NCBI GenBank assembly: GCA_958295905.1
Contig: OY282382.1
Location: 3,310,001 to 3,374,000 of the forward strand
Reading direction: 5' to 3'
Length of the DNA: 64,000 nucleotides
Source of the DNA: an uncultured Vicinamibacterales bacterium
GTDB lineage: Bacteria; Acidobacteriota; Vicinamibacteria; Vicinamibacterales; UBA8438
The notes under the pieces are model-generated. The model was not told where the DNA came from and did no database searches. It was given only the letters and a program-made list of their open reading frames with translations. Both the position numbers and the translations under genes were made by a program. Position 1 is the first letter of the stretch, and each line of letters begins with the position of its first letter. Positions 3,435 to 55,378 of this stretch are shown one piece after another.

Positions 3435-3626
3435 CCGCGCCGGTGGGTCGTCATGCCATAATCTTCGTATAGGTGGACTGGAGTCGACGGAGGCAGTCTC
3501 CTGCAGGGGGACTCTTCTGGGTTCGAGGCGGGTTCCCCGATGCCCCACGATGATGGCCTGAACGCCTCGGCCGGACCCGCAGGGCTCTCCTGGGTTCGAG
3601 GCGGGTTCCCCGATGCCCTGATATTG
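3431..3626. repeat. A2 repeat element carrying a repeat-spacer-repeat duplication
   Basis: Diverged relative of element A (copies at 10690 and 22375). It starts at the CTAG that contains the ribA stop codon. Inside it, a 36-bp segment at 3510-3545 recurs at 3583-3618 (34 of 36 identical), separated by 37 bp of unrelated sequence. The same repeat sequence is duplicated around a different spacer at 10754-10861, and is single at 22440. The rest of the gap to 3753 shows no gene. Confidence 0.75.
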
Positions 3627-4218: not shown

Positions 4219-4286
4219 CGGTCGTCTCCCCGGCCGGGAATGGGATGACTACACGCGGTCAACCCGTCCCGCCGTCCTCCCAGGAG

Positions 4287-4448
4287 CATCCCACGCTGGC
4301 TGCGCGTGACGGCTTCGCCCCCGATTCGAGGGGGCGCCACCGCCTTGCCGACCGGCCGGCGCCGCGTGAGACCCACGATTCCGCCCGTCCGGAGCCCCGG
4401 AACCCGCCACGATTCCGCCTGCGCACGGCGGCGGCGGAGCGTGGGATG
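4287..4448. mobile_element. Element C copy 1 (MITE-like, 162 bp)
   Basis: Bounded by the inverted repeat CATCCCACGCT at 4287-4297 and AGCGTGGGATG at 4438-4448. Internally similar, in opposite orientation, to copies at 26692, 47982, 54797 and 54980. There is no coding capacity; apparent reading frames through it are products of its GC-rich sequence. Confidence 0.85.
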
Positions 4449-4469
4449 GTCCCGCCGTCCTCCATCAGC

Positions 4470-4579
4470 CGTCACGCGGCGCCCGTCGGCGCGGAGCCGC
4501 TGTCGGCGCCTCGGGGCGGATGGGCACGCGCCAAGCTGGACGCGTCACGCGGCGCCCGTCGGCGCGGAGCCGCTGTCGG
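4470..4579. repeat. Repeat-spacer-repeat duplication (37-36-37 bp)
   Basis: An identical 37-bp segment occurs at 4470-4506 and 4543-4579 with 36 bp of unrelated sequence between. The second copy spans the stop codon and last codons of the creatininase-like gene, so the 3' end of that gene is duplicated downstream. Same geometry as about ten other loci in the window. Confidence 0.85.
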
Positions 4580-10689: not shown

Positions 10690-10868
10690 CAGCCGCGCCA
10701 TGATTTTCGGATAGACGGATTGGAGTCGAAAGATGCGATTCTCCTGCATGGGGGACTCTCTCGGGTTCGAGGCGAGTTCCCCGATGTCCCCAGTCAGCGT
10801 GGGATGCCCCTGGCGGACCTGGAAGACTCTCTCGGGTTCGAGGCGGGTTCCCCGATGCCCCTGATATC
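10690..10868. repeat. A2 repeat element with repeat-spacer-repeat (38-33-37 bp)
   Basis: Related to the element at 3431. The segment at 10754-10791 recurs at 10825-10861 with one mismatch and one gap. The 33-bp spacer (10792-10824) begins with 22 bases that are identical to the right end of element C and its flank at 26909-26930, while the spacer of the 3431 copy is different. Confidence 0.8.
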
Positions 10869-17079: not shown

Positions 17080-17537
17080 ACCCGCTGCTGGATACCTGCA
17101 CCCTGCGGTGGGCGTGGGGCCGGCCCGGACGGCTCAGCCCCCGGCTGCAGGGACTGCTGCGGGATCCGGACAACCAAGTGTGGATCAGCGCCGCGAGCGC
17201 CTGGGAGTTGGCGACCAAGCACCGCGTCGGCAGGTTTCCGGGCGGTGGGCCCATCCTTGCCGAGTGGGATGATCGTCTCGCCCGCGACGGCTTTCGCCCG
17301 TTGGCGATCTCGTCCCGCCACGCGTTGCGGGCCGGCTCGCTGCCCGGCGCGCATCGGGACTCGTTCGACCGCATGATCGCCGCTCGGAGCCTGATCGAGG
17401 CGCTCCGGGTCGCGACGCCCGATGCGGAAATCGCGGCGCTCGGCGCCGATACGGTCTGGTGGTTTCCGGCGGATGCGGAGGCCGCCGGGTCGGGCCCGCC
17501 GGCTACAGGTAGCGCCGCGGTACGTCGAGGAGCCTGA
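17076..17537 (+). CDS. PIN-domain ribonuclease toxin (VapC-like), orphaned
   Basis: 153 residues. PIN features visible: PLLDTCTLRWAW at the N-terminus (the first Asp; most relatives have D-T-H), ISAASAWELATKHRVGR with the conserved Glu, GSLPGAHRDSFDRMIAARSL with the later acidic residues, and a weak C-terminal strand. The family cleaves tRNA or rRNA. Its antitoxin is truncated. The normal end (near ...VWWF) is followed by about 15 extra residues encoded by a duplicated segment (17498-17533), so the C-terminus is abnormal. Activity is doubtful. Confidence 0.75.
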   Translation: MNPLLDTCTLRWAWGRPGRLSPRLQGLLRDPDNQVWISAASAWELATKHRVGRFPGGGPILAEWDDRLARDGFRPLAISSRHALRAGSLPGAHRDSFDRMIAARSLIEALRVATPDAEIAALGADTVWWFPADAEAAGSGPPATGSAAVRRGA

Positions 17538-17605
17538 TGAAGCCTGTGAATTTATCGGTCCGTCTTTTGGCCGGCTACAGGTAGCGCCGCGGTACGTCGA
17601 GGAGC
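17498..17605. repeat. Repeat-spacer-repeat duplication (36-36-36 bp) with AT-rich spacer
   Basis: An identical 36-bp segment at 17498-17533 and 17570-17605 is separated by 36 bp (17534-17569). The second copy includes the final codons and stop of the minus-strand methyltransferase; the first copy lies in the PIN tail. The spacer is only about 44 percent G+C, unlike everything around it. Confidence 0.9.
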
Positions 17606-26315: not shown

Positions 26316-26691
26316 GTTCGTCGCGGCTCGGAGCGCCCGCCGGTTCCGCGCCGCCCCGGATGGTGCCGGTTCATCTTGACGTACTTCCGCAACCTCTGCG
26401 GGCCGGCGTCGGCCGCGGGTATGGATGGCGTCGGCTTCGTTCCAGGCCAGGCCCCGGACTTGCCCGGGAGACGTCGGCCGCGGATATGGAGCCCCATGGC
26501 GTCGGCCGTGATGCCTGACGCCCCCGGAATACGGTTCACGTCCGCCGGGTCCGGGCCAGGGTCGGGGGTGATCGGATGCCCGCCTGGAACGGCCGACAGC
26601 CGTCGTGCCATCGACAGGATGCCCGCTGCACCCATTCTCGCACCGAACCTCCTCCGGCGCCGGTCAATGAGTTCCGGTTCGTCGGCAGGAC
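26316..26691. other. Intergenic stretch without recognisable gene
   Basis: Long GC-rich frames occur on both strands but carry no domain I recognise. A minus-strand frame contains the block RLRKYVKMNRHHPGRRG, which could be a remnant of an unknown gene; I cannot support it as a CDS. Confidence 0.4.
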
Positions 26692-26921
26692 CATCCCACG
26701 CTCCGCCACCGCCGTGCGCAGGCGGAATCGTGGCGGTCCTGGGGCTCCGGACGTGCGGAATCGTGGGGCTCACGCGGCGCCGGCCGGTCGGCAAGACGGT
26801 GGCGACGTCTTAGCGGCCGCGAACCCCATGTCGCGCGTGCGCACGCGGCGCCGGCCGGTCGGCAAGACGGTGGCGACCCCTCGAATCGGGGCGGGCCGTC
26901 ACGCGCAGTCAGCGTGGGATG
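26692..26921. mobile_element. Element C copy 2, interrupted by a 36-35-36 bp duplication
   Basis: Ends CATCCCACGCT and AGCGTGGGATG as in the other copies, but 230 bp long instead of 161-162. The excess is explained by an identical 36-bp segment at 26771-26806 and 26842-26877 around a unique 35-bp spacer (26807-26841). All four other element C copies have this segment once, so they show the pre-insertion state. Confidence 0.9.
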
Positions 26922-27439
26922 CCCCTGGTTCGTCGGCAGATCAGATAGGCGGCGGAGGCTCCAAGCGCTGCCTTGAGCATCTCGAGGCTGGTGTAGGCGG
27001 CGTGCAGGATCCCGAAGGTGGCGAGGCTTGGCGGCGGGGGATCGCGCGGGAGGAAGTCGAGGCCGCGTCCGATCGAGATGATCGGCGGCGTGATGACCAC
27101 GGTCAGGGCCAGGGCGATCGCGAGCATCGCGCCGACGAGCCACCGGAGTCGGCGCTCGCCGGCCGGGCCGAGGACCAGCCAGAGGGTGACGCCGCCGAGC
27201 GGGATCTGGAAGAGGTTCCAGGACTGAAAGAACAGGCGGTTGAGCTCGGAGGACAGGTACCGGAGCAGATCGCGGGCAGCCGGCGCCCCGAGCTGGTCCA
27301 CGCCGTCGGCGAACGACGGATGCCCGCCTGCGGCGAGCAGGCGGTCGATGGTATGGAAGTTCTGGGTCGCCGCCACGCTGATGCAGACGGTGCCCATGAC
27401 CCAGATCCCGAGGCAGAACGTCGCCGCACGAGACTTCAT
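26909..27439 (-). CDS. Small four-helix membrane protein, unknown function
   Basis: 176 residues with hydrophobic segments at about 8-25, 72-92, 99-120 and 140-165, and a polar loop with FHTIDRLLAAGGHPSFADGV. The length and layout resemble DUF4149-like integral membrane proteins, but I am not certain of the family. ATG 27439 begins MKSRAATFCLGIW, a good membrane-insertion start. Its 3' end lies inside the right end of element C copy 2, so the last residues are element-encoded. Confidence 0.6.
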   Translation of the reverse strand: MKSRAATFCLGIWVMGTVCISVAATQNFHTIDRLLAAGGHPSFADGVDQLGAPAARDLLRYLSSELNRLFFQSWNLFQIPLGGVTLWLVLGPAGERRLRWLVGAMLAIALALTVVITPPIISIGRGLDFLPRDPPPPSLATFGILHAAYTSLEMLKAALGASAAYLICRRTRGIPR

Positions 27440-30274: not shown

Positions 30275-31535
30275 GGTTGCCCTCGGGCAGCAGGAGACGG
30301 AAGCTGACGGCGACGCGCCGGTCGCGCTGGCCGAGCCGCCGGACACGGCAGCTCGCGGCCCGGCGCCGGTCGCGCTGGCCGAGCCGCCGCCGGGCAACGG
30401 CGGGGGCGCCGCGGCAGGCCACCCGGGCCGAGACGGCGCCGCCGCGCTGGCCGAGCCGCCGCCGGGCAACGGCGGGGGGCGGCCGGTCGAGGCGGACGTG
30501 GCGGCGGAGGCCGCCGCGCCGGTGAAGTTGCCGGTGTTGAAGGCGGCCGACTTCGCCAGCGACCAGGACGTGCGGTGGTGTCCCGGATGCGGGGACTACG
30601 CCATTCTCGCGCAGATGAAGAAGATGCTGCCGTCGCTCGGCGTGCCGCGCGAGAACATCGTCTTCATCTCCGGAATCGGGTGCTCGAGCCGGTTTCCGTA
30701 CTACATGAACACCTACGGCATCCACAGCATCCACGGCCGGGCGCCGGCTTTCGCGACCGGGCTCAAGGCGGCGCGGCCGGATCTGATGGTGTGGGTCATC
30801 ACCGGCGACGGGGACGGGCTGAGCATCGGCGGCAATCACCTCATGCACGCCATCCGCCGCAACCTGGACGTCAACATCGTGCTCTTCAACAACCGCATCT
30901 ACGGTTTGACGAAGGGCCAGTACTCGCCGACGTCGCCGCTCGGCAAGAAGACCAAGACGTCGCCGATGGGGGCCATCGACAACCCCCTGCACCCTCTGTC
31001 CATCGCCATCGGCTGCGAGGCCACGTTCGTGGCGCGCTCCATCGACACGCACATCAAGCACCTCGAGAAAGTGTTGCGGCGCGCCGCCGAGCACCGGGGC
31101 ACCGCCTTCGTCGAGGTCTATCAGAACTGCAACGTGTTCAACGACAACGCCTGGCAATACGCCAGCGACCGCCGGACCAAGTCCGAGCACACCATCGAGC
31201 TCGAGCACGGGGCGCCGCTGGTCTTCGGCCACGACCGGCAGAAGGGCATCCGCCTCAACGGTCTCGAGCCCGAGGTGGTCGCGCTGGGGAACGGCACGAC
31301 CGAGGCCGGCCTGCTGGTGCACGACGAGAAGGCGTCCGAGCCGAGTCTGGCCTATCTGCTGAGCCGGCTCCGCCACGAAGACGGGTTCCCGGAGCCGATC
31401 GGCGTGTTCCGGGCCATCGACGCGCCGCGGTATGAAGAGGAGCTGGCGGCGCAGGTGGCGTCCGCCCGCGCGCGCTCGGGCGGGGGGGATCTGAACGCGC
31501 TCTTCAACTCGGGCGAGACCTGGACGGTTTCATGA
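30240..31535 (+). CDS. korB: 2-oxoacid:ferredoxin oxidoreductase, beta subunit
   Basis: Thiamine diphosphate and 4Fe-4S subunit. The cluster cysteines are visible in RWCPGCGDYAI, FISGIGCSSRFP and VYQNCNVFND; the TPP site is VITGDGDGLSIGGNHLMHA with NNRIYGLTKGQYSP. The frame from ATG 30240 overlaps korA by 35 bp and has a ~86-residue N-terminal extension of repeats (PVALAEPP and ALAEPPPGNGGG units). GTG 30498 gives a 345-residue protein of usual family length and may be the true start. Partner of KorA; last bases overlap the zinc-ribbon CBS gene by 4 bp. Confidence 0.9.
   Translation: MSYSRLESWWRRVALGQQETEADGDAPVALAEPPDTAARGPAPVALAEPPPGNGGGAAAGHPGRDGAAALAEPPPGNGGGRPVEADVAAEAAAPVKLPVLKAADFASDQDVRWCPGCGDYAILAQMKKMLPSLGVPRENIVFISGIGCSSRFPYYMNTYGIHSIHGRAPAFATGLKAARPDLMVWVITGDGDGLSIGGNHLMHAIRRNLDVNIVLFNNRIYGLTKGQYSPTSPLGKKTKTSPMGAIDNPLHPLSIAIGCEATFVARSIDTHIKHLEKVLRRAAEHRGTAFVEVYQNCNVFNDNAWQYASDRRTKSEHTIELEHGAPLVFGHDRQKGIRLNGLEPEVVALGNGTTEAGLLVHDEKASEPSLAYLLSRLRHEDGFPEPIGVFRAIDAPRYEEELAAQVASARARSGGGDLNALFNSGETWTVS
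30315..30478. repeat. In-frame direct repeats at the korB 5' end, incl. 36-36-36 bp unit
   Basis: An identical 36-bp segment at 30371-30406 and 30443-30478 is separated by 36 bp (period 72, in frame). A 27-bp part of the same segment also occurs at 30315-30341 (period 48). If translated these give ALAEPP repeats in the KorB extension; if korB starts at GTG 30498 they are non-coding. Confidence 0.85.
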
Positions 31536-39827: not shown

Positions 39828-40418
39828 ATGCGTGACCGTTGGTACGGTGACAACCGCGACGTCGTGAAGTGGAGCGCCGTCGTGCATCTCGCGCGCCGCG
39901 AGGCGATCCCGGACGTTCTGCATGCGGCCCTGTATCGGCCGGATGACGAGTGGCCGCGGCTCGCCACCGCGCGCGGACCGGCGGCGTTGCCGGTCGAGGT
40001 CGTCCGCCACTTTCGCGACCTCGACGACCTGCAACGGCTTGCCGCGGCCACCGCATTGCGTATCGAGACGGTGAAGGAGCCGTTTCTCGATCGATCCGCC
40101 TACTTCCGGCGCGTCTGCGAGCGGGTCCGAGCGTACCGGGCCCCGGTGTTGGTGCTGCTCGACCCCGACACCGGACTCGCCCCGGATGGCGGCGGCGGTG
40201 CTCAACACGTGACGTCGGCCGAAGTGACCGCGATCTTCGCCGCGTTGCGGCCGGGCGACCTCCTCGCCTGCTATCAGCACGCGCGGCGGCAGAAGGACTG
40301 GCGCGGCCGGGCCCGGCGCGCCTTCGCGAACGCCCCCGGCGTGCCCTCGTTCGAGGTGGAGGTCCTGTGCTCGGACCTGGCCCGCGACGTGCTCATGCTG
40401 GCGGTGAAGAAGGGATAG
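39828..40418 (+). CDS. Conserved-looking protein of unknown function
   Basis: 196 residues starting MRDRWYGDNRDVVKWSAVVH. Later blocks are APVLVLLDPDTGLAP near residue 105 and RPGDLLACYQHARRQKDW near 145. The layout resembles a family of uncharacterised proteins with a L-D-P-D-T-G-L motif that may have a nucleotidyl- or methyltransferase-like fold; I do not know a function. ATG 39828. The last 9 bases lie in a 36-bp segment that is duplicated 39 bp downstream. Confidence 0.6.
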   Translation: MRDRWYGDNRDVVKWSAVVHLARREAIPDVLHAALYRPDDEWPRLATARGPAALPVEVVRHFRDLDDLQRLAAATALRIETVKEPFLDRSAYFRRVCERVRAYRAPVLVLLDPDTGLAPDGGGGAQHVTSAEVTAIFAALRPGDLLACYQHARRQKDWRGRARRAFANAPGVPSFEVEVLCSDLARDVLMLAVKKG

Positions 40419-40520
40419 CAGAAGTGCGGTTGGGGTCGGTGCTGCGTTCCTGCCGCGCATGGTGGGCAACTCGGATTTCACGCGAAGGGATGGCAGCGGT
40501 GCGGTTGGGGTCGGTGCTGC
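40410..40520. repeat. Repeat-spacer-repeat duplication (36-39-36 bp)
   Basis: A 36-bp segment at 40410-40445 recurs at 40485-40520 (33 of 36 identical). The first copy includes the stop of the gene at 39828; the second contains the ATG (40490) of the next gene at the position where the first copy has ATA. Confidence 0.8.
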
Positions 40521-47864: not shown

Positions 47865-47981
47865 ATAAGCGCAGGCGATTGACCGCTACATATTGTGCCA
47901 AATCGGACCCAAAACCGTTCTGCGGCGCAGACTCCTAAAACTAAAACTAAACACAACGACCACTGGCCTCGCCTCCAGGAC

Positions 47982-48142
47982 CATCCCACGCTTCGCCACC
48001 GCCGTGCGCAGGCGGAATCGTGGCGGGTCCTGGGGTTCCGGACGTGCGGAATCGTGGGTCTCACGCGGTGCCGGCCGGTCGGCAAGATGGTGGCGACCCC
48101 TCGAATCGGGGGCGGGCCGTCACGCGCAGTCAGCGTGGGATG
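47982..48142. mobile_element. Element C copy 3 (161 bp)
   Basis: Ends CATCCCACGCT and AGCGTGGGATG; internal sequence closely matches the 54.8-kb copies. No interruption. The remaining bases up to 48283 contain no gene. Confidence 0.9.
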
Positions 48143-48283
48143 CCGCCGGTCCCGCCTCCGCCGCCATTATCCCCCGCCGAACCCCGGCGCTTCGCCCTGA
48201 CGCATTTCACGCCTTCGTGGTGGCCGCGCAAGCGCGGCCATGACCGTTTGGAGCGGGCGGGGATTGGATGCCGACGGCGCGGG

Positions 48284-54796: not shown

Positions 54797-54958
54797 CCTC
54801 CCACGCTCCGCCACCGCCGTGCGCAGGCGGAATCGTGATGGGTCCCGGGGCTCCGGACGTGCGGAATCGTGGGTCTCACGCGGCGCCGGCCGGTCGGCAA
54901 GACGGTGGCGACCCCTCGAATCGGGGGGCGGGCCGTCACGCGCAGTCCGCGTGGGATG
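54797..54958. mobile_element. Element C copy 4 (162 bp)
   Basis: Ends CCTCCCACGCT (one change from the consensus) and the CGTGGGATG block. Forms a tandem pair with copy 5: the surrounding GGCATCCGGGC sequence is repeated at 54781, 54964 and partly 55147, so a unit of 183 bp has been duplicated. Confidence 0.85.
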
Positions 54959-54979
54959 CTCCTGGCATCCGGGCAGGGG

Positions 54980-55140
54980 CATCCCACGCTCCGCCACCGC
55001 CGTGCGCAGGCGGAATCGTGATGGGTCTTGGGGCTCCGGACGTGCGGAATCGTGGGTCTCACGCGGCGCCGGCCGGTCGGCAAGACGGTGGCGACCCCTC
55101 GAATCGGGGGCGGGCCGTCACGCGCAGTCCGCGTGGGATG
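54980..55140. mobile_element. Element C copy 5 (161 bp)
   Basis: Ends CATCCCACGCT and GCGTGGGATG. Nearly identical to copy 4, as expected if the 183-bp unit was duplicated recently. Confidence 0.9.
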
Positions 55141-55196
55141 CTCCTGACATCCGGGACATTCAGGTTGATCGGACGCCGGCCCTGACGGAGAATGCT

Positions 55197-55378
55197 CCGA
55201 GCCGTGGTGATTTGCGCGGGCGTGCGGCGAGACGTGTCCGGATCCATCGGCGGCCGGACAGCCGGATCGACGCCGAGCCGCGGTGATTTGCGCGGGCGTG
55301 CGGCGAGACGGGTCGCAGGTTCCGGGTGCCAGTGGTGTCTACTGGGAGGTGACTGCGCGTGGGCGTGCGGGGAGACGG
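55197..55378. repeat. Repeat-spacer-repeat with two spacers (38-38-38-33-degenerate)
   Basis: A 38-bp segment at 55197-55234 recurs at 55273-55310 with one mismatch, after a 38-bp spacer. A third, degenerate copy occurs at about 55344-55378 after 33 bp. This is the only locus in the window with more than one spacer, and its last repeat is degenerate. It lies in the region before the cytochrome/monooxygenase-like gene. Confidence 0.8.

Follow-up and report, generated by a model that had tools for sequence, protein, structure and literature searches.

Within a 64,000-nucleotide window (the whole stretch of DNA that was analysed, positions 3,310,001 to 3,374,000 of contig OY282382.1 from an uncultured Vicinamibacterales bacterium), one copy of a small repeated element, here called element C, contains a 36-bp segment twice around 35 bp that are absent from the other copies. 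How did a short, unique sequence come to be inserted with a duplication of this length? The initial annotation proposed that a short sequence was inserted into an empty element and the target duplicated, either by Cas1-type integration or by a patch-repair duplication. The observation is correct. The order of events is supported and, of the two mechanisms, Cas1-type integration is strongly favored, although the initial annotation did not recognize that the phenomenon extends across the genome.

An insert within a repeated element

The window contains five copies of element C. Four carry the 36-bp segment CACGCGGCGCCGGCCGGTCGGCAAGACGGTGGCGAC once (with small differences) while the fifth carries two identical copies of it. 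Element C has 17-nt inverted ends and short target duplications of its own and no coding capacity, and it is thus a MITE. The features of the window, including seven further candidate insertions considered below, are as follows (no strand is assigned unless given).

26686-26927, plus strand: element C copy with insert; terminal inverted repeats at 26686-26702 and 26911-26927 (17-nt arms, 88% complementary)
26676-26688, plus strand: left target duplication of the MITE (GGTTCGTCGG plus CAG of the repeat end), part of a 13-bp exact direct repeat flanking the element, of which about 10 bp lie outside the element
26927-26939, plus strand: right target duplication of the MITE
26771-26806, plus strand: 36-bp target segment, first copy
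26807-26841: 35-bp spacer-like insert
26842-26877, plus strand: 36-bp target segment, second copy
47976-48150, plus strand: element C copy without insert (empty site)
54799-55146, plus strand: two tandem element C copies without insert (empty sites)
4280-4452, minus strand: element C copy without insert (empty site)
3512-3618: ectopic unit, 34-bp duplication, 39-bp insert (3546-3584); same target sequence as the unit at 10754
4470-4579: ectopic unit, 37-bp duplication, 36-bp insert (4507-4542), beside an element C copy
10754-10857: ectopic unit, 33-bp duplication, 38-bp insert (10787-10824); the insert contains a piece of the right end of element C
17498-17605: ectopic unit, 36-bp duplication, 36-bp insert (17534-17569)
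30371-30478: possible ectopic unit (36-bp duplication, 36-bp insert), doubtful because it overlaps a 36-bp tandem repeat
40409-40520: ectopic unit, 37-bp duplication, 38-bp insert (40446-40483)
55197-55310: ectopic unit, 38-bp duplication, 38-bp insert (55235-55272), just after two element C copies

The genome (6.3 Mb, about 70% GC) holds 255 matches to the 36-mer with up to three mismatches and none to the reversed control pattern. As the initial annotation had suggested, insertions, their positions and their duplication lengths were counted across the copies of element C. Searches with patterns for two cores at short distance found 13 and then 17 places. Of the 17, one is not element C (C1:1204767; C1 and C2 denote contigs of this genome) and one, at C1:1837647, is an ordinary internal tandem duplication of element sequence (C1:1837590-1837849). 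The remaining 15 carry inserts of 35-40 bp between two copies of a 36-bp target segment, and all 15 inserts differ. Fourteen lie at exactly the same central site; the fifteenth, at C1:4703k, is shifted by 16 bp but again reads as a 36-bp duplication with a 36-bp insert. The duplication is always 36 bp apart from later mutations. At a second site near the right end, two further copies (C1:312k and C1:1151k) carry the same kind of insertion, and a copy at C1:1106714-1106944 has a 47-bp insertion that could be another 36-bp duplication event followed by a small deletion. Flanking repeats of 6-14 bp were found at 12 of the 15 insert-bearing copies and none were found at 3. About 94% of copies are empty, every insert is different, and the insert-bearing copies checked mostly have their own separate short MITE target duplications; the proposed order (empty element, then insertion with target duplication) therefore holds. 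Insertion happened many times independently after the copies had dispersed. Element C itself was found only in this genome among the related ones searched, apart from a 22-bp match in one same-genus genome.

Stepwise unequal recombination between element C copies, which the initial annotation had named as the alternative that would overturn its reading, is very unlikely. Element C is abundant and sometimes tandem, and the copy at 1837k fits such a process, but it looks quite different from the other 15, whose inserts are not element C sequence. A transposon or casposon family with very short cargo would also produce an insertion with target duplication, but the inserts share no ends or sequence with each other, which refutes this reading. 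Casposon target duplications are 14-15 bp.

Units of the same anatomy across the genome

The same anatomy (36-bp duplication, 35-40 bp unique insert) occurs throughout the genome at unrelated sequences. When an unbiased 1.6 Mb of the chromosome was tiled and direct repeats were counted by distance, exact repeats of 22-45 bp peaked sharply at start-to-start distances of 71-75 bp (8, 18, 14, 8 and 4) against about one per distance elsewhere. A stricter event search found 49 units at distances of 70-77 bp against 0-5 in other bins of equal width (8 distances). Control DNA has essentially none: 0 in 300 kb of Sinorhizobium pSymB, 0 in 200 kb of a same-order genome, 0 in 281 kb of viral contigs and 1 in 839 kb of mixed genomes, although the last control was collected by a search for a short repeated pattern and is not GC matched. 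An exact search of all genomes with a short double pattern gave chance hits only. One same-genus genome showed a single candidate in 64 kb (41-bp duplication, distance 72), so the phenomenon may extend to the genus. By extrapolation from the 1.6 Mb, about 190 units are expected in the genome. The window holds eight candidates including the element C insert, one of them (30371) doubtful. By GC phase, none of the 49 units lies inside a gene, against 48% of random sites.

Among perfect duplications in all stretches read (2.23 Mb of the 6.3 Mb), 11 are 36 bp and 12 are 37 bp, with numbers falling off above; 35 bp is rare (2) and shorter ones fit later mutation. Chance extension of a 36-bp duplication at both ends predicts most of the tail. 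Inserts average 37.1 bp (sd 1.5). Events at 1377010 and C2:16771 were left out of these statistics, as the insert of the first recurs as a local repeat family and the second was judged repeat-like. Of the 79 units in these stretches, 49 have target sequences found nowhere else in the 2.23 Mb, and these unique inserts at single-copy sites refute unequal recombination for most events. Two paralogous intergenic sites in the window (3512 and 10754) carry different spacer-like inserts at the same target sequence. Replication slippage, template switching or patch repair, the last being the other mechanism raised by the initial annotation, do make duplications with short templated insertions, and one element C copy (1837k) is a plain internal duplication. 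However, such errors do not predict fixed lengths at dozens of unrelated sites or inserts from phage-like or distant chromosomal genes, and this explanation is contradicted by the fixed lengths and considered unlikely.

Resident CRISPR-Cas systems and the content of the inserts

The genome has three cas1 loci, two of which are type I-G. Locus A has a Cas4g/Cas1g fusion, Csx17/Cas8g and Csb1, with 88 repeats of 36 bp; locus B has separate cas4 and cas1, Csb1 and Csb2, with 199 repeats of 36-37 bp; and locus C has Csc2 (type I-D-like), with about 105 repeats of 28 bp. Only the I-G loci have a repeat length equal to the 36-bp duplication. Spacers of arrays A, B and C average 37.8, 36.7 and 37.5 bp, all within about 0.7 bp of the mean of the ectopic inserts, but insert lengths differ slightly from arrays A and B by rank test (p 0.02-0.04) and attribution to one system is therefore tentative. 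A Cas4g/Cas1g match at C2:41448-42179, on the 147-kb second contig, covers only profile positions 1-244 and contains a stop, and is apparently a broken copy. Three ectopic-looking units lie within 700 bp of the trailer side of array A (C1:5237338-5237850). Additionally, four copies of a roughly 29-bp repeat (GCGGGTCGCGCGCACGCGTGTGCCGGCCG) with 36-38 bp unique spacers at C1:3399959-3400210 form a possible small array with a repeat length near that of the type I-D-like system.

The inserts are spacer-like in content, although no source was identified for most of them. The insert at 940k shares 25 of 26 bp with a spacer of array C (44.1 bits, against at most 32.2 in 556 shuffled inserts) and 16 bp with a spacer of array B. 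All three read VAHPPC in one frame with synonymous differences. A degenerate search for this motif found 30 viral contigs, in each of which it lies in an open frame reading VAHPPCA.WG. One of these proteins belongs to the phage family phrog_12600 (function unknown), and the insert and spacers match several of the contigs at roughly 90-100% over 20-31 bp. A 19-base hit in one viral contig was set aside as chance since its reading frame differs from that of the spacers. A search of phage genomes with the joined inserts found nothing significant, and an exact 23-base search of viral contigs with the 3961k insert found nothing.

Other inserts resemble chromosomal genes (gene names were read by eye from the translated products). 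The insert at 26807-26841 matches the genome's own serS gene (C1:756558-756591) on the opposite strand at 32 of 34 positions, with synonymous changes, and base 35 also differs. The 1862k insert matches mqnC at 38 of 39 bases and the 1679k insert matches an ATPase-like gene perfectly. In all, 8 of 47 inserts match the chromosome at 91-100% outside their own site against 0 of 25 array spacers (Fisher p 0.04). The mismatches suggest either related donors or age. The excess fits the removal of self spacers from working arrays but is based on small numbers. No consistent PAM was seen at the few self matches, which were inspected only by eye.

Off-target spacer integration as the likely origin

The best explanation, with a probability of about 0.92, is that the 35-bp insert is a CRISPR spacer integrated at the wrong place. 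In this model, a Cas1-Cas2 complex, most likely from one of the two type I-G systems, captures DNA fragments of 35-40 bp and, instead of using the leader-repeat junction, sometimes attacks the two strands of an unrelated sequence 36 bp apart. Gap filling would then duplicate the 36 bp, giving repeat-spacer-repeat. Cas1-Cas2 joins a fragment to two strands at a fixed spacing, and repair duplicates the segment between. A fixed spacing of 36 bp at sites of unrelated sequence is what off-target use of a type I-G integrase predicts. The analysis establishes the anatomy, the fixed 36-bp ruler, the spacer-like lengths, the diversity and partly phage or chromosomal origin of the inserts, their spread across the genome and their avoidance of genes. 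The integration event itself, its dependence on cas1, the enzyme responsible, the role of a leader-like motif and the functional silence of most units are inferred from sequence alone.

Element C is a hot spot, possibly because its center resembles the leader-repeat junction of one of the arrays: it reads GATTCGAGGGGTCGCC where the junction of array B reads GATTAGGGTGTCGCC, a likeness reached by about 2% of random sites. No general leader-like motif was found at the ectopic sites, which show only weak biases (no T at position +1, purines at -5). Their resemblance to the array B junction was no better than chance overall, and slightly higher scores against the array A junction may reflect GC content.

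The units could instead be dispersed, functional mini-CRISPR arrays, with element C as a mobile leader-repeat carrier that spreads landing pads for new spacers. The strong hot spot in a mobile element and the junction likeness are consistent with this, as are a few sites (155k, 640k, 212k and 3557k) that hold two or three spacers, some with two spacers between three repeats, as if new arrays had begun to grow. However, this is unlikely. The 36-mers differ from all three array repeats and from each other between sites, making Cas6-type processing unlikely; nearly all units have a single spacer rather than several next to a leader; only about 6% of element C copies are occupied; most ectopic units are not in element C; and near-self inserts would be harmful if functional.

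Off-target spacer integration is already known from the laboratory. Overexpressed type I-E Cas1-Cas2 in E. coli reportedly integrates spacer-sized fragments outside arrays and duplicates the target to a repeat length, forming new repeat-spacer-repeat units (Nivala, Shipman and Church 2018, Nat Microbiol 3:310, as cited in PMC11788318 and PMC9456107), whereas the units described here are in a natural genome, apparently derive from type I-G and have a preferred site inside a MITE. Frequent integration outside the CRISPR locus is also reported for type V-C Cas1 (as cited in PMC13034035), a different type with roughly half-size repeats and spacers. In type I-G adaptation with a Cas4/1 fusion (PMC10504553), which involves the same enzyme family (Cas4g/Cas1g) as encoded here, prespacers enter a leader-repeat plasmid, while the sites here are unrelated to the repeat. 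Ectopic acquisition in Streptococcus thermophilus places spacers at unusual positions but within a CRISPR array (PMC7999890, PMC5338259). No natural genome with a genome-wide record of this kind was found in the literature searched, which mostly excluded subscription papers, so the novelty of the finding is provisional.

How CRISPR arrays are born and how faithful adaptation is in nature are open questions. It is somewhat more likely than not that this genome preserves a largely unselected record of spacer capture, comprising roughly 200 off-target integrations by type I-G adaptation machinery with a transposable element acting as a repeated landing pad. The 36-bp duplications at a distance of 71-76 bp provide a simple signature with which other genomes can be screened. 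Because ectopic spacers are probably not made into guides, they would keep self and near-self fragments that true arrays lose through autoimmunity, so that the raw intake of CRISPR adaptation could be read in the wild, along with possible births of new arrays. With about 190 expected datable integrations and hundreds of natural empty sites for comparison, site choice, ruler length, prey choice before selection and the growth of new arrays become directly measurable.
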